Shown: positions 18,805 to 42,264 of the stretch, in pieces
Numbering within the stretch: position 1 is the stretch's first letter
How the letters are laid out: every line of letters starts with the position of its first letter
NCBI GenBank assembly: GCA_025560025.1
Contig: CP048487.1
Span: 1 to 64,000 of the forward strand
Source of the DNA: Agrobacterium tumefaciens
GTDB taxonomy: Bacteria > Pseudomonadota > Alphaproteobacteria > Rhizobiales > Rhizobiaceae
Direction: 5' to 3'
DNA: 64,000 nt
Notes under the pieces: generated by a model
Databases searched by the model: none
What the model was told of the DNA's origin: nothing
The model's input: only the letters and a program-made list of their open reading frames with translations
Position numbers and translations under genes: made by a program

Positions 18805-18828
18805 CGATAAGGGTTATTTATCGATGGT
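18800..18828. promoter_or_regulatory. 11-7-11 inverted repeat at the recombinase start: candidate core site
   Basis: ACCATCGATAA (18800-18810) and TTATCGATGGT (18818-18828) are exact reverse complements separated by GGGTTAT. Two 11-bp arms around a 6-8-bp centre is the standard geometry of tyrosine-recombinase crossover sites such as dif or loxP-like sites. It covers the recombinase initiation codon (18804-18802). An autoregulatory operator or an mRNA hairpin hiding the start codon are alternatives. Confidence 0.6.
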
Positions 18829-19036
18829 TAGAAGCTTAAATTCCAACCGTACGATATGCTGAACTCTAATGCCAAGATAGCTTTCGTATAATCAATTGTT
18901 AACCATAATTTCAATGGCTTACGGTCTCACAAAAATCAGCATGACTCGGTAGCTGAAGGGGTAGGTGGGGCAGATTTGGTGGCGGTGCCGTTGGTCAACG
19001 TAGATGGCGTAGCCGAGCTGAAGCGGCTCCGGATTT

Positions 19037-26656: not shown

Positions 26657-28894
26657 ATGCACGAACTTCGCGCTAATGGTGTATCGAATCGATATGAGGG
26701 GCCCAGGGCGACGCCGAAGGAGAAGGCATTGGAAGAAGCTGAGACTGTCCAGAGGACGGAAAGTGAAGTCTTTGCCGAGCTCGAAATCTTGTGCGCTTCT
26801 CCGGGATTTATTCACGCGATCGCCTATTTTTGCTTTCGGGATAATCTCATCCGATACAGCGGCCAGCTCGGCGTCAGAGACATGGATTCTCATTATGAGG
26901 GCTCCAGTCTCCTGCGAAGTGAAATCTCGACATTGATAGGCCTGATGGTTCGCAGTCCGTGGACAACGGATATGCCGGCGCCGGAAGCCCTGCAGGGCTA
27001 CATCGATAGCACCGACGAACTTATGCAAGAGCTTCATCATGCCATGGCCGCCGAGGCTTTCTTCGGCGGGAGAGATCTGGCAGGTCTGTTGGCCGGCAGA
27101 GATCCGTTTCAGGATGGAGCCGCGATGCGGGAACCCATCTTCTACGGCGGTGAATCTGCTTACAATTTCCAGTACAAAGCCCTTACCGAGCTGAAATACC
27201 GCGCCGATGAGGAGTGGCTCGAGAAGACACGCGGCTTCAGCATCACGGAGGCACTCTTAGTCGCGAAGGCGATTGGTGACCATCACCTTCATCGCCTAGG
27301 CCTTCTTCGCAAGGAAATGCGAGCACAGTCCCCGGACCAATGGACGTTTCTTCCCGCTTTTACCTTTACGATCAAAGATATTGCGGCTCGCGCTGAGATC
27401 GCAATTGGGAGGGTCGAAGCGATCCTAGCTGCATTCAAGTTTGGCAGGCACGAGCGCAACAGCGCATTTATCGGCTTGAGTGAATTCAATGAGGCGAACG
27501 CCCGGCCGATTCTAGCTTGCGGAGACGGCGGCTATATCCTCCTGCAACACTACCAACTGCAGGAATCACTCTACGAGTCGCCGTTTTTCTGGATGATGGC
27601 GGACGACGATTATCGCTCTACCGCTACCGCCAACCGGGGCATTTTCACAGAATCCTATTCGAGTGAGCGCCTTCGCTCGGTGTTTGGCCCCTCCCGTGTC
27701 CTAACGAATATTGACATCTACCGCGGGAAGAATCGGTACGCGGAGGCCGATGCGCTCGTCCTTTTCGGTAACCAGGCGATTGTTGTTCAAGCGAAATCAA
27801 AACGCCTTACTCTGAATGCGCGCAAAGGAAACGACCTGGCGCTCAAAGACGATTTTAAAAAGGCCGTTGCGAACGCCTATGATCAAGCGCTTCTCTGCGC
27901 AGGCGCATTGCAGCGTCCGAGCGACTTTGTCTTTCGAGACATGCAGGGACGGGAACTTAAGATTGCCGGCCCAGTTGAAATCATCTATCCGATGTGTGTC
28001 CTCGCCGATCACTATCCCGCTTTGACTTTCCAGGCGCGGCAGTTCCTCAAGATAGAGGCCGACAAGATCGTCCGAAGTCCGCTCGTCACGGACGTGTTCA
28101 CACTAGACATCATCGCGGAATTTCTGGAGACGCCGCTCCACTTTCTGAACTACCTGGATTTGCGCGCACGCTCTTACACCAAGCTGCTGATCACCAACGA
28201 GTTGATCCCGCTTTCGTACCACCTCAGGAATAACCTATGGCTCGATGACAAGTACGATATGGTCAATCTTGGTGACGACTTTACGGCTCACGTGGACGTA
28301 GCCATGGCGGTCCGGCGTCAAGGCGCTTCTGGAAGCCGAGAGATCAAAGGAGTTTTGACTCGATATAGGGGCACGCCGCTAGGAGCGATAGTAGCACAGA
28401 TCGAAGCCAGTGCGAGCCCGGAACTGACAGAACCGGGAATGTGGCTTTTGCAACTTTCGGACAGCTCAGCAAATGGTCTTTCACGTGCTTTAGACTTGCA
28501 AAATAAAGCGGCTGTCCGCGAAGCGAAGACGAAGGATATTTCACTTCCTTTCGACGCACAGCACGCAGGTATGACGATCCATATAAATTCGCTTCCTGAG
28601 GATCTCGCGAGAGAGAAAATCCTGCAACATGCGCGAATAAAGAAGTACGAATTGAGGGCTGAACGATGGTATGGGATGGTCCTACACTCCGGTGATCTCC
28701 AAATGAGGCAGGCCGTAGTGTTGTCCGATCCATGGCAGCCGAGTTCGGTGATGGATGCGACCCTAGCAAAATTGCCTCGTCGGTCACCGGCGCCACTAGA
28801 TCAGGTCAGTTTGCGGGTTGGCAAAATAGGTCGCAACGAGCAATGCTCATGCGGAAGCGGCCTCAAGTTCAAAAAGTGTTGTCTCAATCGATGA
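26657..28894 (+). CDS. PD-(D/E)xK nuclease-like protein with C-terminal SEC-C motif
   Basis: 745 aa, no close family recognised. In the middle, NRYAEADALVLFGNQAIVVQAKSKR has the spacing of a PD-(D/E)xK (NERD-like) active site: D365 and Q378-x-K380. The last residues CSCGSGLKFKKCC form a SEC-C zinc motif, often an accessory nucleic-acid or protein-binding tail. It is divergent from mkoA with an 89-bp shared upstream region and convergent with the Hxs operon. Its place between two Mokosh-like loci suggests a defence role. The start 26657 has a weak ribosome-binding site (GCGGAAAAA), and other in-frame starts are possible. Confidence 0.75.
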   Translation: MHELRANGVSNRYEGPRATPKEKALEEAETVQRTESEVFAELEILCASPGFIHAIAYFCFRDNLIRYSGQLGVRDMDSHYEGSSLLRSEISTLIGLMVRSPWTTDMPAPEALQGYIDSTDELMQELHHAMAAEAFFGGRDLAGLLAGRDPFQDGAAMREPIFYGGESAYNFQYKALTELKYRADEEWLEKTRGFSITEALLVAKAIGDHHLHRLGLLRKEMRAQSPDQWTFLPAFTFTIKDIAARAEIAIGRVEAILAAFKFGRHERNSAFIGLSEFNEANARPILACGDGGYILLQHYQLQESLYESPFFWMMADDDYRSTATANRGIFTESYSSERLRSVFGPSRVLTNIDIYRGKNRYAEADALVLFGNQAIVVQAKSKRLTLNARKGNDLALKDDFKKAVANAYDQALLCAGALQRPSDFVFRDMQGRELKIAGPVEIIYPMCVLADHYPALTFQARQFLKIEADKIVRSPLVTDVFTLDIIAEFLETPLHFLNYLDLRARSYTKLLITNELIPLSYHLRNNLWLDDKYDMVNLGDDFTAHVDVAMAVRRQGASGSREIKGVLTRYRGTPLGAIVAQIEASASPELTEPGMWLLQLSDSSANGLSRALDLQNKAAVREAKTKDISLPFDAQHAGMTIHINSLPEDLAREKILQHARIKKYELRAERWYGMVLHSGDLQMRQAVVLSDPWQPSSVMDATLAKLPRRSPAPLDQVSLRVGKIGRNEQCSCGSGLKFKKCCLNR

Positions 28895-28997
28895 GCGGTT
28901 GGGGAGCGTCAAATGCTTGCAATTCAAGCACTTAACTGAGGTTTATCACGGGTCGCCGGTTCAGATCCCATCAAGAACTTAGTGTTCCTCCTGTGAG

Positions 28998-29657
28998 TTA
29001 ATCGCTCCGAAGGAATTTCGCATTTACCCATCCATCTCGGCCGGTTTCCGTCACAAGGATGTGCACCCATCCGGATTCCTCCATTATAACAGCGACCACG
29101 GTCCCCGTCGGCAGTATCTCAATCAATGGTGACGTCGGATCAGGCGATTTGCGCATGTTGAGGTTGGTTATGGTTCTGGCAGGTTTTGCGTTCTTTTGAT
29201 CCGAGACTGGAGCGATCGCGATTTGGGGTGTTGATTTTATCTCTTTCGTGATCAGTGGCGGGAGAGGGGGAACTACGGCGTCAGTTACGGCTGCGATAGA
29301 GCCATTTTCGATTTTTTGCGCCAATGCGGATTTAACTGCGACATCGAATGCCAATTTCAGGTCTTCTTCGATATTTCGAGATTGCCGAGCAGACGTCTGT
29401 CCTGGCGCCACTTTTTGTTCGTCCGCGAGTTTGCTGTTGTTCGGATTAGTTGGAAGCGGTGTTGTCAGAGAATCACCAGATAGGCCTGTGCTTGCATCCT
29501 TGGCCCCGAGCGAGACCGAACCCGAATTCGCATTTTGATATCGCGCAGAAGTGTTTTCACCGTGCGATGTTTTATGCTTGGAAGATATGTGCGCCAAAAA
29601 AGTAGCGCCGGCAGTCATGCCAACGATGATCCAGAAATTTCGATAGGGTGCGGACAT
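28998..29657 (-). CDS. Membrane-anchored SH3-domain protein, last gene of the mkoC-hxs operon
   Basis: 219 aa. An N-terminal hydrophobic segment (NFWIIVGMTAGATFLAHI) anchors it, then a long low-complexity linker, and a C-terminal bacterial SH3 domain (TITNLNMRKSPDPTSPLIEILPTGTVVAVI ... GWVNAKFLRSD). Such SH3b domains bind peptidoglycan or peptides in the envelope. It starts 6 bases after the stop of the upstream HhH-protein gene, so it belongs to the same transcript. The HxsA product also has a peptidoglycan-binding domain, which links both ends of the operon to the cell wall. Confidence 0.8.
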   Translation of the reverse strand: MSAPYRNFWIIVGMTAGATFLAHISSKHKTSHGENTSARYQNANSGSVSLGAKDASTGLSGDSLTTPLPTNPNNSKLADEQKVAPGQTSARQSRNIEEDLKLAFDVAVKSALAQKIENGSIAAVTDAVVPPLPPLITKEIKSTPQIAIAPVSDQKNAKPARTITNLNMRKSPDPTSPLIEILPTGTVVAVIMEESGWVHILVTETGRDGWVNAKFLRSD

Positions 29658-29663
29658 CGGTTG

Positions 29664-30545
29664 TTATCCTCTGTCAACTTCGACTTGTTTTAAACGAACC
29701 AGCGCGTCAAGCATCGTTTGCGGCGGCGCATTACGAAAAGTCTCTGTTGCTTCCTTTAAGCGATGTAAATCATCAGATGCGTTGCCGAGTTCGCGTTCGA
29801 TCTTCGCGCGTTGTTCACCAATTTTGTTTTTGACGTCTTGAACAGCTTGGGGGTCCGTAGGGATTGACGCGTTGAAAACGAACTTCTTGGTGATCGAACT
29901 CGCCCATGCCTCCATTTCCCCCACAAGAGAAGGTCCGAAGCCCGGTACGCTACCAATACGTCCGTTGCGAACGTCCCATGCCGTTTGGAAACCGTAAGAG
30001 GCAAGCGTGACTTTGCGACCCTGCCCGATGCCAGAAATTTTCGCACGATCAATTGATTGGGATTTCATGTAGCTGATGAACTGAATTTCGCGCTTTTTCT
30101 GTTCAAGCGCGTTGAGCATCTCATGCTCTTTCGCTGGGAGCTTTGCATGGGTATTCGCAAGCGACAGATAGTGATTTCTTGCCTTCTCGAATTTCTCGGG
30201 CCCGGCTTGATTCCGCCAAATCGTTCGTTGCTCTTCCCAGGCTGTTTGGGCACCATCATATTGGGCTTTAAATTTCGTTTTTATGTCTAATGAGCAAACA
30301 GTGGTGAATATTGTGCCAACTGCAAGCGCGGTTCCCCAGAAACCATGCACAGCCAATGCGAGGTAGGAGCCAATCGCAAGAGCCGTTGCGCCAGCAAGGA
30401 CGGTGACATTGCGTTCAAATCTTGCCGCGCGGCCCGCCGCTGATATCTGCACGAGGGGAAGTGGAGCGAGCGCTGCTTCAAGCTCCGGTGGCGCTGTGGG
30501 AGCTGGGATCGCTCGGATTGTCGAAAGAAGCTGGCTAATATCCAT
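29664..30545 (-). CDS. Membrane protein with helix-hairpin-helix domain
   Basis: 293 aa. Two adjacent hydrophobic segments (about 47-65 and 68-85: VTVLAGATALAIGSYLALAV, WGTALAVGTIFTTVCSL) are followed by a charged coiled-coil region and a helix-hairpin-helix module (ISGIGQGRKVTLASYGFQTAWDVRNGRIGSVPGFGPSLVGEME). A second coiled coil lies at the C terminus. The HhH part would face the cytoplasm and might bind DNA or act as a protein module. The family is not recognised. Spacings of 6 bases to both neighbours put it firmly in the Hxs operon. Confidence 0.75.
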   Translation of the reverse strand: MDISQLLSTIRAIPAPTAPPELEAALAPLPLVQISAAGRAARFERNVTVLAGATALAIGSYLALAVHGFWGTALAVGTIFTTVCSLDIKTKFKAQYDGAQTAWEEQRTIWRNQAGPEKFEKARNHYLSLANTHAKLPAKEHEMLNALEQKKREIQFISYMKSQSIDRAKISGIGQGRKVTLASYGFQTAWDVRNGRIGSVPGFGPSLVGEMEAWASSITKKFVFNASIPTDPQAVQDVKNKIGEQRAKIERELGNASDDLHRLKEATETFRNAPPQTMLDALVRLKQVEVDRG

Positions 30546-30551
30546 AGTGAT

Positions 30552-31160
30552 TCAGTTAGCGACGATACCGAAGGCGTTGAGCACTTCGGGCGTAATGGTT
30601 CCGGTGACTTTCAAATTGTAGTCGGTCTGCATGGCGATCAACGCGGTTTTACTGCCTGGGCCGACCTGCCCGTCGATCAAGCCGGAATAATAGCCATACG
30701 CGGTCAACGCTGTTTGCACCTGCATCACAATCCGTTTGAACTTGTCGGTGTTGCCTGCAAGAGGTTTCAGCGGGATGGCAGGTGGTGTCGCCGGCGCGCT
30801 ATAAAGCGGTGCAGGTGTTGCCGGCACGGCCGGTGCTACGGGTACGCTGGGTGCAGACGGGTAGATTGAGCGCGCGGGTGGGGTATAGGATCGAGAGGGT
30901 GATGAATAGGTTGATGACCCACCATAGCTATAGCCTCCGCCGCTGCTTGATCTATGGCTTGAGTGTGAGCGATGACTGGAATGAGATCGGTGTGATCGGT
31001 GGCCCGCAAGGGTGAAAACGTGTTTGAGCTTCAACCGCTCCAGGATAGTTGGAACCGAGCTCTTTTTCTCAACGACTCCGCCAATAGGCATGGCCGCTGT
31101 CTTTGACGGCAGAAAACCCGCCGCCAAAAGCGACGGGATCAGAAATAGCCGCGATTTCAT
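30552..31160 (-). CDS. hxsA: His-Xaa-Ser repeat protein HxsA
   Basis: 202 aa. A Sec signal peptide (residues 1 to about 23) is followed by six tandem H-x-S triplets at residues 54-71 (HRSHRSHSSHRSHSSHRS), a Ser/Tyr/Pro/Ala-rich linker and a C-terminal peptidoglycan-binding-1 domain (about 140-200). This is the architecture of HxsA, the proposed target of two radical-SAM maturases in His-Xaa-Ser systems. The modification is expected at the repeats, but its chemistry is not known to me. Its ATG overlaps the hxsC stop (ATGA). It is probably exported and wall-bound after modification. Confidence 0.92.
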   Translation of the reverse strand: MKSRLFLIPSLLAAGFLPSKTAAMPIGGVVEKKSSVPTILERLKLKHVFTLAGHRSHRSHSSHRSHSSHRSSSGGGYSYGGSSTYSSPSRSYTPPARSIYPSAPSVPVAPAVPATPAPLYSAPATPPAIPLKPLAGNTDKFKRIVMQVQTALTAYGYYSGLIDGQVGPGSKTALIAMQTDYNLKVTGTITPEVLNAFGIVAN

Positions 31161-32245
31161 AATGGCCCCAATGCAGTAAACCCCTCGCTATGATCATACC
31201 ATTGAAAAAAACCACCACAAGTTTCGCGAGCGCTGCAATTATCGCAAAAATCGAGATACTTTCGTTTCCAGTCTGAAATCGTTGATGGAGCATTGGAACG
31301 GTAGGATTCCGGGACGGAGCAGGCCGGGAAATTGTAGAGCCAAGCCTGTGTTCCTCGAACTGTCACAATATCAAGCGCCCGAGCGAGTGGATCAAAATCG
31401 ACAGACGTATCTTTAAACGACGACGTCCAATTCATGCGGCCATAGCCTATGCGCTCGAGTTGCATGACTGCCCAAAACGAAATAAAATTCAGCCTTGTGG
31501 AGATGAATTCGGCAAGCGCCGGGAGGTCATTCCAGTTTTGCTGTAGTACGACCGTTCGAAGCTCGACAGAGGCACCGGCACGCAGCAGCGTAGCAAGTCC
31601 GCGTTCAAGCGTTTTGAATGCACCCTCTTTGCCCACTATTCGATCATGAACTTCGGCTGTTGCAGAGTAGAGTGGAACACCCCACAGGACACGATCCCAA
31701 CCGAAGCCTGCGATTTGTTCGACGTCATTCCCATCGAGGTGCTGTGCGTTCGTTAGAACGTGAAATCGGATGTCGGGTCTTAATTCAATGACCGTGGAGA
31801 GCATTTCGAACAAACGATGCTTGTGAAGCAGCGGCTCGCCGCCGGAGATGCCGATTGTCGCACCCGATGGGGCAAGCATCGCCGCTAGCGCGAAATGCTC
31901 AAACATGTCCTGGTGATACTTTTTAGGCGGCTGCGAGCACATGACGCAAATCTGATCGCATTGTTCGGTGACAAGAAAGGTATTGTGCTCCGAATGAGCT
32001 CGGATCAGGCGATGGGCGCTGACTTGCCCCGGCAGGAGTAGCAGCACGTCACCGTCCATAATCTCACCGGTTCGTGCATAGACACCCAGGGAAAAGCCGT
32101 TGAAATCATACTCCCGGCGGTCTCCGGCAACATCCAGCAGAACAGCATCGTGCGGACCTCGGTCTTCGCACAGTTCTTCACGGAGCCGAACTACGAGCGG
32201 AGTGTCGATCGGTAGCGGATCAACTTTGAGGCGCAAATCGATCAT
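31157..32245 (-). CDS. hxsC: Radical SAM maturase HxsC
   Basis: 362 aa from ATG 32245 (MIDLRLKVDP), which overlaps the hxsB stop as ATGA; a longer frame extending into hxsB is not used. The radical-SAM cluster motif is C-x3-C-x2-C in TEQCDQICVMCSQPPK. GISGGEPLL is the glycine-rich SAM-binding strand. A C-terminal cysteine set (FCDNCSARETCGGF) could hold an auxiliary cluster. HxsC works with HxsB and HxsD on the HxsA repeat protein in this predicted peptide-modification system. Confidence 0.92.
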   Translation of the reverse strand: MIDLRLKVDPLPIDTPLVVRLREELCEDRGPHDAVLLDVAGDRREYDFNGFSLGVYARTGEIMDGDVLLLLPGQVSAHRLIRAHSEHNTFLVTEQCDQICVMCSQPPKKYHQDMFEHFALAAMLAPSGATIGISGGEPLLHKHRLFEMLSTVIELRPDIRFHVLTNAQHLDGNDVEQIAGFGWDRVLWGVPLYSATAEVHDRIVGKEGAFKTLERGLATLLRAGASVELRTVVLQQNWNDLPALAEFISTRLNFISFWAVMQLERIGYGRMNWTSSFKDTSVDFDPLARALDIVTVRGTQAWLYNFPACSVPESYRSNAPSTISDWKRKYLDFCDNCSARETCGGFFQWYDHSEGFTALGPL

Positions 32246-33651
32246 CGGTGAAACTTCGAAAATGATCGGTCGAACCGGACAGATCCCGACCAAATCGCGA
32301 GGGACTTCTGGACCTTGGGATCCTCTGAGTAGATCAGGGAAAAAATCTTGTCGAAGATATAAGTGTGGCGCTGGCAAAAGTCAGTGAGATGCTTTGGATG
32401 GTCGATACGTCCATAACGTGATAGATCGTCGACCAGATCAACACCGCAAAAAGCCTGATAGGGACAGTGGACGCAATCGGGATGGAAGTTGTTGACCGCT
32501 TCGCCGTTCAGGACCTTGATCTTGTCTGGTTTCAGACCAGTGAAAACATCCCCCATTGACAGATCGAGTTGCCCCACACGGGTGACCATTCGCGCTTCGT
32601 CGGTCGGATAAAACTTGCCATCGTAGTCGATCACAACATAGCTTTGGCCAATGATGTTGGGGTTGCGGAGATCGGTGTGATGGTTGTGGCCTGACCGCAG
32701 GACACGCCTTAGACAGTGCGTAAAGTAATATTCTTCTACGGCCAGATCTGCATCCCAGTTGTATGAAATCAGTTCATCGATGAACAGGAAGTGATATCGG
32801 TTCCAGGCAGCAGCACTCGCCCGGGCATCAAACCTTTTGCGTGCAAAGCCCTGATAGTTCACGGGTCGCAGATAAATCGACCGGATTCCATAGTGAACAA
32901 AAGTGTCGATCAGCGCCCTTGGGACCGGGGGATTGCGCGGGTCAACGGTTGGAAGGGCAGAGACTTTGTCGGCACCGAGCCGTTCGACCGCGGCGTCAAG
33001 GTTCTCGAAGAACGCGGATGTTCTTTCCGTTGTTACGGTACGCTGAGCCTGATGGATTTCCCGGGTTGCATCGAGTGAGGTGCTCGTGAAAACATCTGGC
33101 TCATTCAGGACTGCCCAAGCCTCGTCCGAGACATCTTGCAGGTTTGTACAGATGACAAACTCGCATTGATCAAATCTGGCCCGACAGAATGCCAGCACCT
33201 GCTTGATGACATCCAGACGGAGTAAAGGTTCGCCCCCCTGGAACTCTATCTTGATGTTCCTGGTCGACAGTCCGCCCAGGAACTCAAAAACGGCTGCCAG
33301 CGTCTCCTCGCTCCAGTCGAATCCCGGCGTACCTTCGTTCACCCGCGAAACCTGGCAGTAGCCGCAGGCGAGATTGCATCGCAGCGTTGGTACCAGGATC
33401 ACGTAGTCCATTTCGGACGGGAGGTAGAGGCGGCTGGCGAAGCGATGTTCGAAGCCCAAATACGCGAGGTCACCCAATTCATCAAAAGCGTGGCCATTGG
33501 CGTTCAGAAACTGGAGGTCAGAGGAACTCAATTCGTCGCGGGCATACCGGTCAAGAAACGCCTCGTCTGCTTTGAAATAACCGCCGGCGTCATCTGCGAA
33601 AAGTACGTGCCCGTCGTTGCCGATGCGAAACTTAAGAGGAGCGACCAGCAA
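32242..33651 (-). CDS. hxsB: Radical SAM/SPASM-type maturase HxsB
   Basis: 469 aa from a TTG start at 33651, inside the end of hxsD (20-base overlap). The motif C-x3-C-x2-C is in TLRCNLACGYCQVSR and the SAM-binding strand is EFQGGEPLLRL. The C-terminal half has the extra cysteines DCVHCPYQAFCGVD, as in SPASM-type maturases that carry auxiliary Fe-S clusters and modify ribosomally made peptides. An N-terminal domain of about 80 residues may recognise the substrate. Confidence 0.92.
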   Translation of the reverse strand: MLVAPLKFRIGNDGHVLFADDAGGYFKADEAFLDRYARDELSSSDLQFLNANGHAFDELGDLAYLGFEHRFASRLYLPSEMDYVILVPTLRCNLACGYCQVSRVNEGTPGFDWSEETLAAVFEFLGGLSTRNIKIEFQGGEPLLRLDVIKQVLAFCRARFDQCEFVICTNLQDVSDEAWAVLNEPDVFTSTSLDATREIHQAQRTVTTERTSAFFENLDAAVERLGADKVSALPTVDPRNPPVPRALIDTFVHYGIRSIYLRPVNYQGFARKRFDARASAAAWNRYHFLFIDELISYNWDADLAVEEYYFTHCLRRVLRSGHNHHTDLRNPNIIGQSYVVIDYDGKFYPTDEARMVTRVGQLDLSMGDVFTGLKPDKIKVLNGEAVNNFHPDCVHCPYQAFCGVDLVDDLSRYGRIDHPKHLTDFCQRHTYIFDKIFSLIYSEDPKVQKSLAIWSGSVRFDRSFSKFHR

Positions 33652-33907
33652 GGCCGGTTACTCCCTCGATCAGTATTTTGCGTAGCGGCAACGTCTGCTC
33701 AAAAATTTTCTGACGGTAGAGACAGAACTGGAAGTCCTGTTTCACGCGTGGATCGTCTGCATTCGGTCCCGTAAAGCGAACCGAACTCCCTTCCACGGTC
33801 AAGTCGACCTCCGGGTATAAATATCGGAAGCGAACGGACGCATCCGGGAGCCATGGCTGTAGCTTCTCATCGATGAACAATTCTGAACCGCTTCGTTGTG
33901 TTTCCAT
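33632..33907 (-). CDS. hxsD: His-Xaa-Ser system protein HxsD
   Basis: 91 aa, mixed alpha/beta, no signal peptide. Position directly before hxsB, size and sequence (IDEKLQPWLPDASVRFRYLYPEVDLTVEG..., a helical C terminus with LYRQKIFEQT) fit HxsD, the small accessory component found in every Hxs locus. It may be a substrate-recognition or scaffold subunit; this is inference. Confidence 0.85.
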   Translation of the reverse strand: METQRSGSELFIDEKLQPWLPDASVRFRYLYPEVDLTVEGSSVRFTGPNADDPRVKQDFQFCLYRQKIFEQTLPLRKILIEGVTGLAGRSS

Positions 33908-33960
33908 TTCTAAACCAGTCCACAGAGTTGACCCTCACAGGCTGCAAGACAAGAGATATA

Positions 33961-35097
33961 CTATCTCAGGTTTTGCGAAAGGGAAGTCAAGCATTGGTCG
34001 GATGCGCCGACTTTGTGCTTTAAAAGCTCGATCCATTCGCCGTCATCGAAACCGTAAAACTGGATAACACATTCGCCTGATTCAGAGTCTGACCATTGGG
34101 CTGTCATCAACCGGCTGGAAAGCTCGTATTTCAAGGTAAGGTCCAGGTTGGCTCGGCCCCCCACGGGCAGCTTGAATACTTCTCCGGTGCGTACGTTCCC
34201 GACATAGGCGTTTGAACATCGTGCCCCGCAATCGATTTGAATGACTGCAAGTTCGCCGGCAAAAGCGGGACCTTCGGCCATTCTGCTTGTGATCTTGTCC
34301 TGGTAGTTTCGAAGCGTTGCGCTCTGACCACCAAGATCGGGTGGGTTCCTGGGGCCTGAATAAATGCGCGCAACAGGCAATTGTGAAGGTTTGATCCGTG
34401 CGAGCGATATCTGTCTTTTACGTCCCGCAGCCATATTATCCGTCGGTTGCCAAACAATCGGACGATATCCCACATCAACCACCGATGTCGTCCCGCCAAG
34501 GGTCTCAAAGTACCTGATATCAGAGAGCGCCACGGAGTGGAGCGTAGCCACAGTAGCCATGTGAGCATACGCATCGGCGCCGTACCGGCGTTTGAGATCG
34601 ATGAGACCCGAGCGACTTATCTTCGTCACGAAAGTTGCGACAACGGCAGAGTCTGCGACCTCGTAAAAACTCGAAATCGCCACACCACCGTCCGAGGTGC
34701 TCACAACGGGCGAACCACTTGCTGGCATTATTCCGAGATTGCCGAAGCGCTGCCTGATTGCTGCGAGGGTTGTTTTACCGAACCGAAAGTCTGAAAAATA
34801 CGCGAGTTGAGATAACCCTCGGCCATCCCATGCGGCCTCCAGGCGCACCAGTTTCTCTGTCGACTTTTCGGATGTGATGGACACTTTGACGCCATTTGCG
34901 GCATTGAACGTTCCATCCACGTATCCGTCGAAGCTATTCTGCCAGCTAACATTCTCCAGGTTCGACCGATTTTCGCCGATGAAATGACCGGCAATTGACT
35001 GAGCCGAAGCGCGCCCACCAAGGATGAGAGAAAGCATGGCTGCAAGACCAAGTAAGCCGACCCAACGGGAAAAAAATCGTGACTGTTCAGAGAACAT
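33961..35097 (-). CDS. Predicted secreted protein of the mkoC-hxs operon
   Basis: 378 aa from ATG 35097 (MFSEQSRFFSRWVGLLGLAAM), which gives a proper signal peptide ending at GRASAQS; a GTG at 35154 would extend it and overlap the previous gene. The mature part is beta-rich, with two CxC-type cysteine pairs (DCGARCSN; a later GECVIQF and DQCLTS), suited to the periplasm. I do not recognise the family. It lies 53 bases upstream of hxsD and 41 bases downstream of a second small secreted protein. Confidence 0.75.
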   Translation of the reverse strand: MFSEQSRFFSRWVGLLGLAAMLSLILGGRASAQSIAGHFIGENRSNLENVSWQNSFDGYVDGTFNAANGVKVSITSEKSTEKLVRLEAAWDGRGLSQLAYFSDFRFGKTTLAAIRQRFGNLGIMPASGSPVVSTSDGGVAISSFYEVADSAVVATFVTKISRSGLIDLKRRYGADAYAHMATVATLHSVALSDIRYFETLGGTTSVVDVGYRPIVWQPTDNMAAGRKRQISLARIKPSQLPVARIYSGPRNPPDLGGQSATLRNYQDKITSRMAEGPAFAGELAVIQIDCGARCSNAYVGNVRTGEVFKLPVGGRANLDLTLKYELSSRLMTAQWSDSESGECVIQFYGFDDGEWIELLKHKVGASDQCLTSLSQNLR

Positions 35098-35138
35098 TTG
35101 TGCCAGCCCCCCGCGGCAATTTTTGACACCCCGATTGC

Positions 35139-35462
35139 CTAACGGCGCTCCCACACCTTTAGATATGGCAAGCCGCCCATCTCAGCGACGGCCTCTGCAG
35201 CTTCCTCGCACGACATATGTGCAAGTGTTTTCGCAATTCGCGGCCGCAATACCTGCAACTGCGATTTTGCTCGTTCGTATTCTTCATTTGTCAGATTACT
35301 CCCAATAGTCGCGTCCACAAGCGAGTAATAGTCGTTGCATCGATCTTCAACTGCGCGAACACCGGCTTCAAATCGGGCGAAGCGATCAGCTGCGTCAGCA
35401 TACGCAACTAAGGGGACCGCTGTCATTACAACTGAAATGACAAGTTTTTGGATTTTTGTCAT
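35139..35462 (-). CDS. Small predicted periplasmic protein coupled to mkoC
   Basis: 107 aa. The signal peptide MTKIQKLVISVVMTAVPLVAYADA is followed by a helical mature domain of about 83 residues with two cysteines (EDRCNDYY; HMSCEEAA), probably a disulfide. It starts in an ATGA overlap with the stop of the helicase-PLD gene, so it is translationally tied to a cytoplasmic defence-type protein. That is an unusual pairing. The family is unknown. Confidence 0.8.
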   Translation of the reverse strand: MTKIQKLVISVVMTAVPLVAYADAADRFARFEAGVRAVEDRCNDYYSLVDATIGSNLTNEEYERAKSQLQVLRPRIAKTLAHMSCEEAAEAVAEMGGLPYLKVWERR

Positions 35463-38400
35463 TGAGTTGCCTCTCGAGTAGCATTCGCGGCGAACCTGCT
35501 GCTGATGTGATCTTGGTTGTATTCTGATACGTGCCGCGGCTGCATTTGCCTCAAGAGGGCTGCCCGGTTTTTAAGGCTGCTTTCCAAAGTCGCTATTTCG
35601 CTTGCCAGATGGGGTCCGCGATAAACGATGGAGGTTTCATGACGAGCATAGTCGCCCGATCGATGGGCGCTGCACCAGTTGAAGGATCCGACCGCAAGGA
35701 GCGTATCATCGACCCAAAGCAGTTTGCTGTGCAATTGTTCTACGGGGCGAACGATAACTCCGAACCTAGAGAGAAGATTGTCTGCCTCTTCGAATAAATC
35801 TGCATTGCTGGCTGTTCCCCGGGTAAGAACCGGATCCGCATAGACACTCATCTGAACGCCGCGCGCTTGAGCCGCGCGGATCGCGGAGATCAGGCCGACT
35901 TGCTCCATCGTTCCGATTTTGATCCATGGCGACACAATCGCGACGCGCTGCTTTGCCTCTGACAGCGCGCGAAGCATAAAAGCGTCATGCTCAGCGGAGT
36001 CCCGCAGCATTTCAACCGCAAGCGAACCCTTCGAAAGATCGACGCGAGCTTGTTGCTCAAACACGATCTCGTTTTCGGGGTGCTCAAACAGAAAGCGGGC
36101 AAGAAGTGAGCGGGGCGTAGCTGGTGCGACGGCCGCAAAGACATCCATGTCGCCAAAAACGAGGAACGCGTCCTTGGCGCGTGACACCGCGACATTCAAC
36201 ATACTGGGAGACTGGTCGATAAATCCGCCATCCGCATGTTTCGTATAGACCGGGGAAAAAATAACGATCTGCCGCTCGGCACCCTGAAGGGCATGGACGG
36301 TCCCGACGGTGATTCCGGTTTCCTTGCTCGCGTCGATTCCAAACTCCCGGCAGGCGGTGCGGATTTCAGAAACCTGCCGGCCGAAGGGCGTTACCACGCC
36401 AATAATCTCACTTAAGGGCTTTCTGTAACGTTTCTCGAGATCCCCGGCATTGGCCTTTATCCATGCGGCAATCATGCGTGCTTCAAGCAGGTTGTAGCGG
36501 CTACCGCCGGCTGCCTGGGCAATGCCGTCGATATGCAGATAGCCCATCGGAGGAATATCCATATCGGCCGATGGACCACGTTTTGGCTGGAGCGTTCCCT
36601 GGTAACAAAGCTCATTGCAAAACCGAATAATGTCGTCGTAGCAACGGCGGTGTTCGAACAGATAAAGCCCGCGTTCGAGGTTTTCGTAGGGATGGAAGCG
36701 GCAGGCCGATTGAGCCAGGCGCATCACGCTGCCGGTTCTTGATGTCATGCCAACGGCTTCCAAGTTCTCCAGGGCTTCTCCCGCGCGCCCATGAGGTATC
36801 AGTCCTGCCTCGGCGAGATTGCCTGCGTCGACAGTGGCGGTCAGCGATGTGATCGGTTCGATTTGCTGCGTATCTCCAATGACCAGCGCCCTCTTGGCCA
36901 AAGAGAACGACGGACCGGCAACTTCGGGCAGTACCTGTCCTGCCTCATCGACAATCAGAAGATCGATGTAGTTGTAGAGGTATTCAGTCTGGTAGCTGCG
37001 TCCAACCTTGTCGCGGCAAGTCATCTTGCCGGGCAGGGTGGCAAATGTCGAAACTGCGCAGGGTGTGATCATCATGCGCATCCGCCAAAGCGCCTCAACC
37101 ATATCGCGGTCGCTTTCACCTCTTTTATCCTTGCGGACCTTCTCCAGCGCGGGAAGGACCTTTTCCAATTCAAGAAGCCAGCGACCCTCCCAGTAATGCG
37201 TCGCCAGTAGAAACATCGAAAAGCGGATGGTCACATCGGCGTGGCGGTCGAAGTCCAGAATATCAGGATCCGCTTTCTTGCCGCCGATACCACTATATAC
37301 CGTCTGGAACGCACTGATGTGGTCCCGCAAATTCGTTATTTCGCGTTGCGACTGGTGATAGGTTTCAGCAGCTTGACGCGCCGTGTTCTGTTTATTCGTG
37401 ACGAAGGCTTTGAGATTCGCTTCGATGCGTTCAAGCCGTGTCTCGTCGAGCAAAGTCTCGTCAACACCCAATTCGCGCAAGAAAATTCTGGCGCGGATAA
37501 CGCGCTTTTGCGCAACAAAAGGAAGGAAGCTGAGCGCGGAGGTGAGCCATGGTTCTTTGGCCAGCCAAATATCCCAGAGCTTTAACAATTCGCTTGCCGC
37601 CGCCGCAATCGTTTCGCTCTCTACCTTCGTTGCCAACAGCCGCCGAATGGCATTGTCGGGGTCGACACCTAGCGTTTGGCGGACCCTGGCGCGCGCATTT
37701 ACAAGATTGCGCCAGGTTTCATCAGCGTCGAGGAGCTTCCGGCTGTAATGCTCGATGTTTGCGCGTAGCTGCTTGACCACTGTTTCAACAGTCGGTTGTT
37801 TCAAGTGCGGAAATGCGAGTTTTGCGGCGTTTAGATAAGCAGTCCTTGCCTTTGCGAGGAATGGCGCTGTTTCTCTCTGCCTGAAAAATGTATCGGTCTG
37901 GTACTTTCGCGTTGCTTCATTTTCTTTTGAGAAGGATGCAAGGAAAAAGCCAAAGCTGAAGAACTCCGGCAGCCATCGTCCTGCAAAAACTCCATCTCCT
38001 TTCGCAAAATCTTTCGCGAATGCATCAATGATGTTGGTGACAGCTTGATTGTTGGTTGAAGCCGCGATGATTAGCGGCGGATTGCCACCGGCAAGTGCTG
38101 CCTTTATCCACTCTCCCGCAATTGCCGACAGCAACATGGTCGTCTTTCCGGTTCCGGGAGGTCCGTTCACCGCAAGGATCTCACCGGTTCCGGCTTGAGC
38201 AAGATGCGCCAGTACTTCCCTTTGCTGGTCGGCGACTGGAAACGTCTGATTGGAGTGACCCAGTCGATCGTGAAGAATGAAGGGCAGTCCGATGGTGGGC
38301 TCGATCTCCCGGATTTTCGTCCTTGCAAAATTGGCGAGCAAAGGTGCGTCCGGCTGTTCTTTGATCAGAGTATCGCTTAGCGCGAGAATCTGGCGAACGG

Positions 38401-38986
38401 TCTGTGAGGTATTGGTTGCCAGGCAGATCAGACCGGAGTCGATAGTGGTGTAATCTTTGTCACCGTGGGGCCAGCCTGCTCCAACCTCTTCCATCATCTT
38501 TTTCCAATAGGCCTGGTATGCGGACCACATGGCGGGGTCTGCAGGATTGGCCTCAAATGGCTTCATGGTAAGAAAGCGATCGAAGTCGCGCATGTTTCCG
38601 ATGGAAAATCCACCACCAAGAAGGGGGTCGAGGATATCGCGAGCGATCCGCGTGTGGCCGGGTATGATGCGGCCTTTTCGATCGACCGCCGCGTCAGTCA
38701 GAATAGGAGCAACCTCAGCTGGCAATCCGTCGTTCTTGACTGCTCCACGATCAAGCATCCTGCGAACGTGCAGTGGCCTGTACAGTACTTCGACCTGCTT
38801 GAGGGTATCCGGTTTATCTTTGAAAAGAGCGTCGATCGTTTCCTGAGACAATCGTCCGGTTCGTGCCTCTTCGGATGAGACCGTCTGAAACTCTTTGCTT
38901 GCCTTCGTTGTCAGGCAAGCATCCCGCGATGCACTGTCGGCCACTGCGGCGCGCCAGTATTTCAGAACGGACAGATTGGCTTTCAT
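35459..38986 (-). CDS. mkoC: Mokosh type II-like MkoC, helicase-PLD fusion
   Basis: 1175 aa. A SF1 helicase (COG1112/UPF1-like): Walker A GPPGTGKT 275-282, Walker B VDEAG 679-683, GDTQQIEP 704-711, VGTVHALQGAERQIVIF 894-910 and VAVSRAKDA about 932. A long insertion (about 340-640) separates Walker A and B. The C-terminal 190 residues are a PLD nuclease with one HKD motif, H1086-x-K1088-x4-D1093, and GSFNW. One motif per chain implies dimerisation. Helicase and PLD in one chain is Mokosh type II. Here it is the first gene of an operon with an Hxs system, an arrangement not known to me. Confidence 0.87.
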   Translation of the reverse strand: MKANLSVLKYWRAAVADSASRDACLTTKASKEFQTVSSEEARTGRLSQETIDALFKDKPDTLKQVEVLYRPLHVRRMLDRGAVKNDGLPAEVAPILTDAAVDRKGRIIPGHTRIARDILDPLLGGGFSIGNMRDFDRFLTMKPFEANPADPAMWSAYQAYWKKMMEEVGAGWPHGDKDYTTIDSGLICLATNTSQTVRQILALSDTLIKEQPDAPLLANFARTKIREIEPTIGLPFILHDRLGHSNQTFPVADQQREVLAHLAQAGTGEILAVNGPPGTGKTTMLLSAIAGEWIKAALAGGNPPLIIAASTNNQAVTNIIDAFAKDFAKGDGVFAGRWLPEFFSFGFFLASFSKENEATRKYQTDTFFRQRETAPFLAKARTAYLNAAKLAFPHLKQPTVETVVKQLRANIEHYSRKLLDADETWRNLVNARARVRQTLGVDPDNAIRRLLATKVESETIAAAASELLKLWDIWLAKEPWLTSALSFLPFVAQKRVIRARIFLRELGVDETLLDETRLERIEANLKAFVTNKQNTARQAAETYHQSQREITNLRDHISAFQTVYSGIGGKKADPDILDFDRHADVTIRFSMFLLATHYWEGRWLLELEKVLPALEKVRKDKRGESDRDMVEALWRMRMMITPCAVSTFATLPGKMTCRDKVGRSYQTEYLYNYIDLLIVDEAGQVLPEVAGPSFSLAKRALVIGDTQQIEPITSLTATVDAGNLAEAGLIPHGRAGEALENLEAVGMTSRTGSVMRLAQSACRFHPYENLERGLYLFEHRRCYDDIIRFCNELCYQGTLQPKRGPSADMDIPPMGYLHIDGIAQAAGGSRYNLLEARMIAAWIKANAGDLEKRYRKPLSEIIGVVTPFGRQVSEIRTACREFGIDASKETGITVGTVHALQGAERQIVIFSPVYTKHADGGFIDQSPSMLNVAVSRAKDAFLVFGDMDVFAAVAPATPRSLLARFLFEHPENEIVFEQQARVDLSKGSLAVEMLRDSAEHDAFMLRALSEAKQRVAIVSPWIKIGTMEQVGLISAIRAAQARGVQMSVYADPVLTRGTASNADLFEEADNLLSRFGVIVRPVEQLHSKLLWVDDTLLAVGSFNWCSAHRSGDYARHETSIVYRGPHLASEIATLESSLKNRAALLRQMQPRHVSEYNQDHISSRFAANATREATQ

Positions 38987-39292
38987 GTTGTTGCCTCAAG
39001 CAGATGCACTTTGTTCTCGCTGGAGCCCAGCCGCGTAGTCGTAGTGCGCACCTTTGCAATTTACGCGTTAACACTTTGTGTTATGCTCGCTAAAAGCTGG
39101 CTGACCAAGCCGAAAACGGCTTCCGCCTCCCAGCAAGTGCGGCATCGATTGGCCGCTATCGCAATTTGGATATTATAAACTGACAGTATGCTCGCGGCCC
39201 GCCAATCGGTGTAACCGGTGTTCTGGCCCCACGTTGTCCGCTGTGCCTAATCTGTTATCGAGTTTCCATGGATGAGCAAAGGGGAGATTCTC
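38987..39292. other. Upstream region of mkoC with small palindrome
   Basis: No gene seen in these 306 bp. TAACACTTTGTGTTA (39069-39083) is an inverted repeat of two 6-bp arms with a 3-bp spacer, 83 bp upstream of the mkoC start, and could be an operator. The left end of the neighbouring IS66 remnant lies inside this stretch, but its terminal repeat was not identified. Confidence 0.4.
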
Positions 39293-39679
39293 CTTGGAGA
39301 CTACGTTGGAGGTTCTCACCACGCGGCGGGGCCGACGTGAGGCTCATCGCCAATGGCCGGACGAGGTTAAGGTACGGGGGTCGTGTCGGAGAGTTTGCGG
39401 CCGGGTGTGACGGTGAACGAAGTAGCGGAACGTTACGGGCTGAAGGCCAATCATCTGTCGTCAGGGCGAACACTGGCGCGACAGGACAAGCTGGTTCTGA
39501 CCGAGCCGGAAGATGCGGCCGAGTTCGCCGCCGTAGTCATCGAGACCTGCGCCGGAGCCACCGACGGTCAAAGCAGCCTCCCGCGCCGAGATCGTCGTCG
39601 GTCCAGTCACCATCCGTCTTAAGGAAGGTACGTCTGCCGCCCGGATCGCCGCCATCGCGCGTGCCCTGGCGGTGGCGAC
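39293..39679 (+). pseudogene. IS66 TnpA, frameshifted
   Basis: Reads LETTLEVLTTRRGRREAHRQWPDEV, then after a frame change [38 protein letters not shown]. This is the helix-turn-helix accessory protein TnpA of IS66. The original ATG is replaced by TTG and at least one indel lies near 39375. Together with the next entry it is a remnant of one IS66 element. Confidence 0.8.
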
Positions 39680-39799
39680 ATGATCTTCCCGTCGAACCGC
39701 GTGCGGATCATTGTGGCGACCAAACCCGTGGACTTCCAGATCGATGAGCTTTTGCCATGGAATCCTCCTGCCCTTTGCGCCCAACTCGCCACTTCCTAG
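39680..39799 (+). pseudogene. IS66 TnpB N terminus joined to TnpC C terminus
   Basis: ATG 39680 starts MIFPSNRVRIIVATKPVDF, the exact style of an IS66 TnpB N terminus. The frame then continues as QIDELLPWNPPALCAQL, which matches the last residues of IS66 TnpC (IDELLPWN). An internal deletion of roughly 2 kb has therefore fused the two ends in frame. The product is not a transposase. Confidence 0.75.
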
Positions 39800-39827
39800 A
39801 GGGTGGTTCTTGAAGTAAAACACGTCG

Positions 39828-40112
39828 ATGAAAAACGAATTGGTTCATGAAATCTGGCTCGATCCCGAGCCAGATGGTCAACTGCTCCCCGGTCTTTGTC
39901 TGGCTGGTCCCATGGGAGACAATTTTAGAGCGCTCCTCAATGAGGGGGCCGTGAAGGCGGGCGAAATAACCGGGCACAGCTATTTCGATGTCATGACGAA
40001 ATACTGGAAGCTTCAGAGCTGGGGCGAGTACCAGACGGAGCACCGACAGGATCACGAGCCATATCCGGACGAGTGGGTTCGAATCCAACGCCCTTTTATC
40101 GACAGTATGTGA
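39828..40112 (+). CDS. Small hypothetical protein
   Basis: 94 aa (MKNELVHEIWLDPEPDGQLLPGLCLAGPMGDNFRALL...). Acidic and Trp/Tyr-rich toward the C terminus (KYWKLQSWGEYQTEHRQDHEPYPDEW). Proteins of this kind recur on rhizobial plasmids as far as I recall, with no assigned function. No signal peptide or membrane helix. It follows the IS66 remnant by 28 bases, so it may be under a promoter within that debris. Confidence 0.65.
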   Translation: MKNELVHEIWLDPEPDGQLLPGLCLAGPMGDNFRALLNEGAVKAGEITGHSYFDVMTKYWKLQSWGEYQTEHRQDHEPYPDEWVRIQRPFIDSM

Positions 40113-40629
40113 ATTGCAGATTGACTGCGATGACCACTCAGTCGCTTGGCGCTGAACACCACTGATCTTACAGGTGAGCACCGTACTTTTGGTCAAGTGT
40201 GATCGACACATCGCTTACCAATCGGTGATACTATCAAGCCAAGTTCCTGATGAGCTTACGGGTCTCACGCTGAGGGAATTTGTGAATAACAGCGCAGGGA
40301 GCAGGCTTTGCTCCTGAAACAGACGGTAGCACCTCAACCAACTCACCGGCCGAGGCTGACGCCAATCCTGGCCGACAGCAGGCGCTCGGAAACTTCGTCC
40401 ATACGGAATAACCCGATCGCCCCTCACCGCCGCTGATAGGGACAGTGAGGCAAAGTGCCTCCGGCCTAGTGGCCGATTTTCGTGGGGTGTTGCTACTGTA
40501 TGAATATTCCATTAGGCCTTGACTTCAGCCAGAACTAGTGTGGACTGTTGCATAGTATTGCTGTGCTCTGAGTCCCCGTCATAAGGTACGCGCAGGCTTA
40601 TTTTCGTAGATCAAGGAAGGAGAGCATTC
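40113..40629. other. 517 bp without a recognisable gene
   Basis: A minus-strand frame near 40240-40420 weakly resembles the C terminus of a LysR-type regulator (GELVEVLPSVSGAKPAPCAVIHKFPQRE), but it lacks the rest. The right end supplies the promoter and strong ribosome-binding site of the small gene at 40630. Confidence 0.35.
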
Positions 40630-40755
40630 ATGGCACTTAAACCAGGACCAAAGCCGATAGCGAAATCCACAGGGAAACCGGATCAGCGCCGCCGTGATAA
40701 CAAAAGCACACCAGGGAATACACCGTCCCTCAAACCCAGCAAGTCCACCAAATAA
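40630..40755 (+). CDS. 41-aa basic small protein
   Basis: ATG 40630 is preceded by AAGGAAGGAG, one of the strongest Shine-Dalgarno sequences in the window. The product MALKPGPKPIAKSTGKPDQR... is Lys/Pro/Ser-rich, strongly basic and probably disordered. It resembles tiny cationic proteins rather than a folded domain. Too short for domain evidence, so confidence is moderate. Confidence 0.55.
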   Translation: MALKPGPKPIAKSTGKPDQRRRDNKSTPGNTPSLKPSKSTK

Positions 40756-41000
40756 GGCACCTCAGAGAGGTGCTCTCGCTGATTTGCACTTCTACCGCAG
40801 TATTCGATTGAACCTGCGCGAAATGCCGCGCGGACTGCGTGCCTGTCGGATGTAATGTCAGCTTTCTCGAATTCCCCGCCGATACCCGTCACCTTCTTTC
40901 ATCGCCGATCGACGGCCTCTTCAGGCATGGAGGGTCCGTTAAGCTATTGGATTTCGCCTCAGACCCTTTCAACTTGTTCGACCTTGAACCCTTACTCAAC

Positions 41001-41624
41001 TCATTTCTTAGGTAAGACTTTCTGTTTCGGTTGATACAGACGCCGTTTGACGTTTGAGCGCAGAGCGTTGCGGAGATCCTTGTCCACCACCGCCAGGTCG
41101 AACCATTCCGGGTCAAAGTAGCCACCGCACCAACGAATGGTCTCGGCATATTCTGGATCTTCCCGATCGGCGATGATCTCCAGGAACCGCTCATAACCTG
41201 ACACACCACCAACATCTTCCGGCGGTCGCGCCCTTTCGCCGGCGATGCAGCTACCGTTTTTGGGTGTTGACGCGAGCGTCAGGAACTCCTCCACCATAAC
41301 CGTATGCCGCCAGCCATCCCCGAAATCATAGTGGTAGCTGAAGACTGCACCTTGCTCGAAGTCCAGCAAGCGAACCTCTCTCTGATCGAAGACCCGAGGA
41401 TCGTCATCGGTCGCATCCTCCATCAGGGCCTCGACGTCGCCATACCGCAGACCACCGATGCGGAATTCATAGAGATGATAGTTCCACCAGTTGAATGCGG
41501 CCTGAATTCCGAGATGCAGGTGCTCCAGGTTCCAATGGGCAGGCAGGACCAAACGGCGCCAGACGTCCGGCTCGATCTCGTCGATGGAAACTCTGATCTG
41601 CACAGCGTTTGCGGCTTTGAACAT
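41001..41624 (-). CDS. Plasmid pRiA4b ORF-3-like protein
   Basis: 207 aa from ATG 41624 (MFKAANAVQIRVSIDEIEPDVWRRL); a much longer frame upstream has no domain and covers the divergent genes. The sequence VWRRLVLPAHWNLEHLHLGIQAAFNWWNYHLYEF and the stretch FSYHYDFGDGWRHTVMVEE are the hallmarks of the pRiA4b ORF-3 family. The family is common on rhizobial plasmids; its function is unknown. The start lacks a strong ribosome-binding site. Confidence 0.88.
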   Translation of the reverse strand: MFKAANAVQIRVSIDEIEPDVWRRLVLPAHWNLEHLHLGIQAAFNWWNYHLYEFRIGGLRYGDVEALMEDATDDDPRVFDQREVRLLDFEQGAVFSYHYDFGDGWRHTVMVEEFLTLASTPKNGSCIAGERARPPEDVGGVSGYERFLEIIADREDPEYAETIRWCGGYFDPEWFDLAVVDKDLRNALRSNVKRRLYQPKQKVLPKK

Positions 41625-41776
41625 TGGAAGAATGAACAAGGTTGGGAGAAGATCGTCAAGAAGGCCGCTCGATCGTGGCACTTTTATTGGAGTTGGATCG
41701 TCCTGGCGGCGATCCGACGGCTTGTGCAGCCTTCGATGCTCACTATCTCTGAGATGACCCTGAACAGGAGCATCGC

Positions 41777-41953
41777 ATGGATCAAAGCGCGGCCGATCTG
41801 CTGTCGAAAGTCTGCATCGAAATTCTTCCGCCGGATCGCGATGAAACGTGGGCGTCGGATGCAACGACATGTCCGTGTTGTGGAAAGTTGCGCCCGGCAT
41901 CCAGCATGGATGACGACGGCTGCGGGATCTGTGACGAATTGCTCGCGCCTTGA
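41777..41953 (+). CDS. Small zinc-ribbon protein
   Basis: 58 aa, AGGAG seven bases before ATG 41777. The C-terminal half has two knuckles, CPCCGKLRPAS...CGIC, a treble-clef/zinc-ribbon type site. The N-terminal part (MDQSAADLLSKVCIEILPPD) is helical. Its stop overlaps the TTG start of the next gene (TTGA), so the pair is coupled. Divergent from the pRiA4b ORF-3-like gene. Confidence 0.72.
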   Translation: MDQSAADLLSKVCIEILPPDRDETWASDATTCPCCGKLRPASSMDDDGCGICDELLAP

Positions 41954-42264
41954 CCTCCTACAGAAAAGCACCTCCACCTGTCCTGGCGACGTTCGAAGAA
42001 GCGCTTGCGAAATTGCCGGAAGGCTATGTTGACGGAAATTTTGGTAATCGATCATGGGGCGTGACCGTCAAGGGGTCGGAGGATGGCAAACGAACCTGGC
42101 TTTATGGCGAGGAGCTTGGCGGAACCGATATCGTCAGCTTTAACTTCTATCGATTGATTGGGTCGGGGCCGATGCTGATGCCGTGCGAAATGTCCTCTGC
42201 GACGGTGGTCGAATTCGTTCTCGGCTTCGAGCCGAGTACGGAGAAAGCTGCGCCTACACCATAA
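41950..42264 (+). CDS. Hypothetical protein coupled to the zinc-ribbon protein
   Basis: 104 aa from a TTG start in a four-base overlap with the upstream gene. Sequence APPPVLATFEEALAKLPEGYVDGNFGNRSWGVTVKGSEDGKRTWLYGEELGGTDIVSFNFYRL looks like a small beta-rich domain. I recall similar rhizobial hypotheticals but no function. Probably cotranscribed with the zinc-ribbon gene. Confidence 0.72.
   Translation: MTSYRKAPPPVLATFEEALAKLPEGYVDGNFGNRSWGVTVKGSEDGKRTWLYGEELGGTDIVSFNFYRLIGSGPMLMPCEMSSATVVEFVLGFEPSTEKAAPTP

Follow-up and report, generated by a model that had tools for sequence, protein, structure and literature searches.

Two modules and a probable seam: a Mokosh II-like gene in front of hxs genes on an Agrobacterium pAt plasmid

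Do nine genes that follow one another on the same strand, with overlapping ends, encode one system? The question is raised by a locus in the first 64,000 nucleotides of contig CP048487.1 of Agrobacterium tumefaciens (assembly GCA_025560025.1; this whole stretch is called the window here). Nine minus-strand open reading frames (ORFs) lie in a row: a gene for a helicase with a PLD domain resembling Mokosh type II (mkoC), genes for a 107-residue protein (per107) and a 378-residue secreted-type protein (sec378), the His-Xaa-Ser (Hxs) genes hxsD, hxsB, hxsC and hxsA, and genes for a membrane HhH protein (hhh) and an SH3 protein (sh3). An initial annotation had listed these genes with their overlaps and gaps, and the ORF list, with hxsC and sec378 read from their annotated starts, reproduced the order and spacing. 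Overlaps of 4 bases were found at mkoC/per107, hxsB/hxsC and hxsC/hxsA and of 20 bases at hxsD/hxsB; the remaining gaps were 41, 53, 6 and 6 bases. The same annotation had read the row as one system, with MkoC as the nucleic-acid effector of an Hxs sensor. Its observation was confirmed and its interpretation as a whole was partly supported, but the joint system was not: in the nine-gene row, two modules most likely meet at a seam. We put the probability that these modules, each mobile independently of the other, came to be joined on a pAt plasmid of Agrobacterium at roughly 85%.

Homology at the mkoC-per107 boundary

The plasmid search with MkoC returned identical coordinates in plasmid pAt of A. 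tumefaciens strain 186 (NZ_CP042276.1, 386,412 bp). The window was identical to this plasmid across the compared positions 18000–50000, and its start holds the repABC genes of the pAt plasmid.

Both halves of the row exist separately. The mkoC gene was matched by blastn on A. fabrum pAtl-11a with 94.7% DNA identity over 35568–39129 and in the same-genus genome G295 with 85.3% over 35561–39116, and no hxs genes lay beside mkoC in the stretches fetched from either. A. leguminum AT13 p1 carried per107, sec378, hxsD, hxsB and hxsC, with mkoC absent (94.1% identity over 31079–35120 and 92.3% over 35119–35507, blastn). The outer homology end of the Hxs module was at 28949 in pAt1D1460 and at 28964 in A. 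leguminum. A distance of 53–60 bases separated the inner homology ends of the two halves, and both lay within the 3′ end of mkoC in the window. The nearest two MkoC relatives ended at about the start of this seam, while the window protein continued for 34 residues. This tail after the PLD domain (codons ~1142–1175) is missing in both relatives, and the alignments of four more distant ones stopped at residue 1141–1143. The last ~16 residues of the tail are encoded by DNA that is the per107 leader in A. leguminum. The stop codon of mkoC is the TGA within ATGACA at the start of per107, and the identical ATGACA was present in A. leguminum. Since the ATGA exists there without mkoC, the overlap was rejected as an evolved coupling. 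A 231-base query across the seam was matched end to end in the own genome only, among 39 genus genomes; G295 matched 100 of these bases, on the mkoC side.

Co-occurrence was counted in overlapping samples drawn from the phylum (398 genomes), the family (394) and the genus (39). In the family sample (threshold for HxsB and MkoC, E ≤ 1e-60), HxsB was found in 12 and MkoC in 16 of 394 genomes, six of the latter exceeding 1000 bits. Both were present in the own genome (G000) and in G250, where a weak MkoC match of 206 bits was on another contig. The phylum sample contained HxsB in 15 and MkoC in 15 of 398 genomes (eight MkoC matches >700 bits). Three genomes had both, namely the own genome, G640 and G667, and the pair was adjacent in the own genome only: in G640 the MkoC match contained stops and hxs was on a different contig, and in G667 the pair was ~150 kb apart. 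In the genus sample, MkoC and HxsB were each present in 2 of 39 genomes, and jointly in the own genome only. Among 80 other Hxs loci from named genomes, none had MkoC beside hxs (E ≤ 1e-5); one locus (L074) had, at its far edge, a weak match (27% over 208 residues). MkoC-Hxs was rejected as a conserved system on these counts, and they do not support the proposed role of MkoC as the effector of an Hxs sensor.

In plasmid records, MkoC-like proteins were matched in 58 and close HxsB in 69, with 40 and 60 of these matches listed, respectively. Among the matches listed, the two sets intersected in 21 A. tumefaciens records, which represented two sequence types (18 at ≥99% and three at 97% MkoC identity). 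Recurrence of the helicase-PLD gene beside hxs had been set as a check beforehand: in the genome samples the pair was adjacent in the own genome only, and among the plasmid matches listed it occurred in these 21 records.

Proteins of the two modules

The coordinates of the genes, modules and seam are given in Table 1.

Table 1. Genes, modules and seam of the mkoC-hxs locus (positions in the window)
Feature	Position	Strand	Basis
mkoC (superfamily 1 (SF1) Upf1-type helicase with C-terminal PLD, Mokosh type II-like)	35459..38986	-	PADLOC, Pfam
per107 (107-residue protein)	35139..35462	-	ORF list, hydropathy, plasmid search
sec378 (378-residue secreted-type protein)	33961..35097	-	annotated start; longest ORF starts 35154
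HxsD-like 91-residue protein, upstream of hxsB	33632..33907	-	position and size
HxsB radical SAM maturase	32242..33651	-	TIGR03978
HxsC radical SAM maturase	31157..32245	-	TIGR03977; annotated start; longest ORF from 32377
HxsA	30552..31160	-	TIGR03979, PG_binding_1
HhH protein (counterpart of YegI-like kinase C-terminal region)	29664..30545	-	alignment
SH3 protein, module end	28998..29657	-	SH3_3
Hxs module	28949..35507	-	blastn homology ends
mkoC module including ~130–143 bases of upstream DNA	35561..39129	-	blastn homology to G295, A. fabrum
Seam, mkoC module/Hxs module	35507..35568	.	blastn

The designation of the helicase-PLD gene as Mokosh II-like held. MkoC scored 1243.7 bits against the PADLOC MkoC model PDLC03924 (residues 4–1141 of 1175, profile positions 5–1135 of 1136), and AAA_11, AAA_12 and PLDc_2 were all above the Pfam cut-off. 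By eye, the translation contained HSKLLWVD and GPPGTGKT, which we take to be the HxKx4D motif and Walker A. The nearest solved chains in a PDB sequence search were Upf1-type helicases. In the available text of PMC10925250, MkoA and MkoC are assigned to SF1_Upf1. With helicase and PLD predicted in a single chain matched over the model's length, mkoC appears to be a strong Mokosh type II member, and membership in the family points to a putative function in nucleic-acid helicase-nuclease defence. The copies in A. fabrum and G295 are free of hxs, whereas the window MkoC carries the seam-made tail and precedes hxs. A Mokosh type I pair was also present at 21376–26567 (−), with MkoA at 723.1 and MkoB at 250.7 bits (PADLOC), so that both Mokosh types lie on the plasmid within 18 kb. 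Type I likewise combines helicase and PLD, but splits them over two genes, and here forms a separate minus-strand unit past a plus-strand SEC-C gene. The latter (26657–28894, +) lies between Mokosh I and the Hxs module and encodes a 745-residue protein that has an SEC-C motif and, slightly below the cut-off, a match to NERD (nuclease-related).

HxsA (TIGR03979, 175.8 bits), HxsB (TIGR03978, 404.4 bits) and HxsC (TIGR03977, 308.1 bits) were above their NCBIfam cut-offs of 121.65, 370 and 267.9 bits, respectively. HxsA contained six consecutive His-Xaa-Ser triplets (residues 54–71) and a C-terminal peptidoglycan-binding domain (PG_binding_1, 51.4 bits). The first hxsA codons (31117–31137, −) contain a GC-rich hairpin with T-rich sequence behind it; such sites occurred at chance frequency. 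The 91-residue protein was conserved across eight aligned sequences, and NCBIfam at E ≤ 10 returned nothing for it but one unrelated family at 0.18. Its similarity to the HxsD-position proteins of seven other Hxs loci was weak (hhalign, E 0.0029, probability 10.6%). Its place and size make an identity as HxsD plausible, though unproven, so the 'complete' Hxs system of the initial annotation stands on curated models for HxsA, HxsB and HxsC but on position for HxsD. The family suggests a putative modification of HxsA. The available part of PMC9062424 calls the Hxs maturation step putative and credits the HxsABCD system to Haft and Basu; hxs genes also appear among listed Pseudomonas aeruginosa genes in that of PMC8446631. 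The window shares the HxsA repeat protein, both maturases and a small gene at the HxsD position with the Hxs system, but differs in an HxsD that curated models do not recognise and in extra recurrent partners, namely the 378-residue protein, the SH3 protein and a YegI-type kinase tail.

Per107 had an N-terminal hydrophobic stretch and two Cys, and its relatives were found in 23 plasmid records, all Agrobacterium among the 20 of 23 matches listed. Four Cys of the 378-residue protein were invariant in ten aligned sequences. PDB sequence searches with this protein and the HhH protein gave no credible solved-structure relative. The earlier description of SH3 and membrane HhH proteins largely held: the SH3 protein matched SH3_3 (39.1 bits), and the HhH protein had one strong hydrophobic stretch in a hydropathy scan, but Pfam named no HhH domain in it. 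Its label derives from the initial annotation and from homology to the YegI C-terminal region. By eye, an N-terminal anchor seems probable for the SH3 protein; the hydropathy scan called none. Beside sh3 on pAtA47a_a (L127 818–3721, −), a 967-residue protein had a sub-cut-off peptidoglycan-binding match and a 32-residue HxsA-like stretch.

A kinase-phosphatase trio beside hxs

Among the 80 Hxs loci, long matches to the 378-residue protein preceded hxsD in nine (L046–L052, L055 and L061); those in L079 and L100 were short and weak. The SH3 gene was present in eight loci and the HhH region in ten. L047 and L048 had the SH3 gene and no HhH match, and L046 was ended by a contig end. A trio of vWA, PP2C and kinase genes occurred in nine of the 80 loci, after hxsA on the same strand in five (L049–L052 and L055) and on the opposite strand in four near-copies (L062–L065). 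The other 71 loci, some of which were ended by contig ends, yielded no trio, so the trio belongs to part of the Hxs family. Pfam analysis of the three rhizobial trio proteins returned VWA, PP2C_2 and Pkinase. In the trio loci, the HhH region was the C-terminal part of the kinase. The window HhH protein, which stands alone and has no kinase domain, aligned to this part of the hxs-adjacent kinases of L049–L052 and L055.

The HhH region matched Escherichia coli proteins with 26.6–32.9% identity. Two of them were labelled YegI (27.6% and 31.1%; E 1e-12 and 2e-12), and the one E. coli stretch that was opened contained a yegL-pphC-yegI row. The rhizobial trio beside hxs had the same gene order, its vWA protein was 63.6% identical to a YegL-labelled protein, and the YegI C-terminal region was homologous to the window HhH protein. 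In contrast to the E. coli stretch, which was without hxs, the window holds the kinase tail only: its scanned proteins gave no VWA, PP2C or Pkinase match in Pfam, and the own genome contained no PP2C or vWA relatives with queries that matched the control genomes G373 and G175. Compared with TerY-P/YegL-PphC-YegI modules, the window thus lacks the vWA, PP2C and kinase parts and retains the membrane/HhH C-terminal region. In a tree of 14 HhH regions, three Agrobacterium stand-alone forms grouped together (100/100); the tree has long branches and does not settle the number of stand-alone origins.

Relatives of the vWA protein were found in 50 plasmid records. Fifteen had at least 80% identity, and all 15 carried hxs genes within 8 kb; they came from Sinorhizobium and Rhizobium only and are therefore not independent. 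Among the remaining 35 records, four were opened (Mesorhizobium NZP2077, Methylocystis rosea, Sphingomonas panacis and E. coli), and the stretches were without hxs. None of these 35 accessions was among the 60 listed HxsB matches, obtained with a query that detects close HxsB only. In Rhizobium sp. CCGE532 (NZ_CP032692; L167 16693–18880), the gene at the hxsB position was shortened beside an IS256 transposase, and hxsA, hxsC and the trio were kept. A link between Hxs and the trio is suggested by their linkage and by the HhH region being fused to the kinase.

According to the accessible text of PMC11090510, TerY-P trios have been hypothesised to work as phosphorylation switches that sense metals, and related modules resembling TerY-P, whose kinase has an OB fold, provide antiphage defence on their own. 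YegI is reported, from its sources, as a membrane Ser/Thr kinase that PphC dephosphorylates (PMC13232886, available part). Among the titles and opening lines of abstracts listed for Hxs, TerY, YegI/PphC and Mokosh, mostly without subscription papers, none described an MkoC-Hxs or Hxs-TerY-P link, nor did the available parts of PMC8446631, PMC9062424, PMC10250203, PMC11090510, PMC10925250 and PMC13232886; pairing TerY-P with radical SAM found no paper.

It is possible, if rather doubtful, that Hxs and the YegL-PphC-YegI-like trio form an antiphage or anti-plasmid system of their own in defence islands, which would be compatible with two joined modules. PADLOC matches to DISARM DrmA/DrmB, QatA, a reverse transcriptase (RT)-associated NERD-helicase and SoFic among 95 ORFs flanking ten Hxs loci would fit such a role, as would an SduA-domain gene within the Hxs stretch of R. 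tropici and the antiphage OB-fold-kinase modules. However, these samples are small, and 95 control ORFs at the same threshold also gave matches (Mads mad3, an RT and several helicase models), with mad3 found in both sets; the controls came from six of nine regions, L162, L163 and L165 having been dropped to equal the test-set size. The commonest Pfam families in the flanks were sugar-transport ones. PADLOC had no model matching HxsA, the HxsD-like protein or the 378-residue, per107, HhH and SH3 proteins, and HxsB and HxsC matched viperin models only, weakly; the available part of PMC13232886 on E. coli YegI and PphC names no defence role. The defence-neighbourhood signal is suggestive only. 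On several plasmids, an integrase and/or RHE_PE00001-family gene, or DNA like window 18799–18944, flanked the Hxs module (window 17566–18944; L129 3484–5977; L126 1101–2249; L048 3768–3913), which hints at a shared insertion hotspot.

Weight of the evidence for a joined locus

Several observations weigh against two joined modules. The joined unit is not brand new: pAt1D1460 carries the same nine genes (96.7% identity over 28949–42254) with different neighbours on the SH3 side, so that two plasmid types share the unit, including an identical MkoC tail. Relative to pAt1D1460, dN/dS (NG86) was 0.14 for mkoC, 0.10 for hxsB, 0.12 for both hxsC and hxsA, 0.24 for per107, 0.25 for hhh, 0.32 for sec378 and 0.40 for sh3. 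Purifying selection has acted on eight of the nine genes (hxsD left out) since the plasmid types parted, and with values of 0.10–0.40 in a unit shared by two types, the arrangement has been kept. This is selection on each half and gives no sign that the halves act together. The 53–60 bases at the seam belong to the homology of neither half. The A. leguminum locus (L126 7447–11991) has decayed: hxsA is truncated after 82 bases, with the end of sh3 directly behind it, hhh is missing and per107 contains a stop. It could descend from a joined unit minus mkoC, so this locus by itself is no proof of the direction that the event took. The 80 Hxs loci are not independent, several being near-copies, and upstream of hxsB eight of them hold <5 kb and 72 hold ≥5 kb. 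At E ≤ 1e-90, the plasmid HxsB query detects close relatives only. Finally, there is no terminator-like site between the two halves. A signal splitting the row had been named as a check. In the minus-strand scan, none of the terminator-like sites lay from the mkoC end to hxsD (three were inside mkoC), but a promoter-like site was inside per107 (35426–35397). Terminator- and promoter-like sites occurred at chance frequency (9 found vs 9.2 expected and 18 found vs 18.0 expected, respectively), so the scan neither shows nor excludes a single transcript.

The decay in A. leguminum would also fit a joined state ancestral to this Agrobacterium plasmid group, with mkoC lost there by deletion. We regard this as unlikely: in CNPSo 675, A47a and Y9 (Y9 by annotation) the Hxs units lack mkoC and thereby indicate the same direction of the event as A. 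leguminum, those of CNPSo 675 and A47a also lack per107, and the closest MkoC relatives stop before the tail. A true joint defence operon on pAt plasmids, in which modified HxsA, together with the envelope proteins, detects incoming phage DNA for destruction by MkoC, is highly improbable; unbroken co-orientation, the 4-base overlap, retention by two plasmid types under purifying selection (eight genes examined) and the Mokosh I pair next door speak for it, but mkoC adjoins hxs in none of the 80 further loci, G640 and G667 keep the two far apart or on different contigs, and the seam lies inside coding sequence at an ATGA that exists without mkoC.

Under the joining of two modules, mkoC with ~130 bases upstream would be a one-gene Mokosh II-type defence cassette, in which the Upf1-like helicase may engage nucleic acid that is foreign or abnormal, for the PLD domain to cut. 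The other half would be a rhizobial Hxs envelope module in which HxsB and HxsC, with HxsD, are predicted from the family to modify the His-Xaa-Ser repeats of an exported, peptidoglycan-binding HxsA, with the 378-residue and SH3 proteins as likely envelope partners. The HhH protein would correspond to the membrane/HhH tail found in a kinase of the YegI type. Kinase, PP2C and vWA genes persist beside hxs in related rhizobia, and the trio was presumably lost from the window locus. Transcription of the hxs genes in this row may come from the side of mkoC. More tentatively, rhizobial Hxs could be half of an undescribed envelope-to-cytoplasm signalling machine, in which a YegL-PphC-YegI-type phosphoswitch reads wall-bound, modified HxsA and its secreted partners; the Agrobacterium switch would have been stripped to the kinase's membrane/HhH tail, and the output on pAt rewired by the Mokosh II effector placed in front.

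The locus illustrates that a plausible 'new operon' can arise at a single seam between mobile modules, misleading ATGA overlap included. The partnership of Hxs with a YegLKI-type trio, present in the window in reduced form, is the more interesting lead. It gives the Hxs system a recurrent, testable rhizobial partner in this kinase-phosphatase trio, and the two could be studied jointly in standard rhizobial strains.

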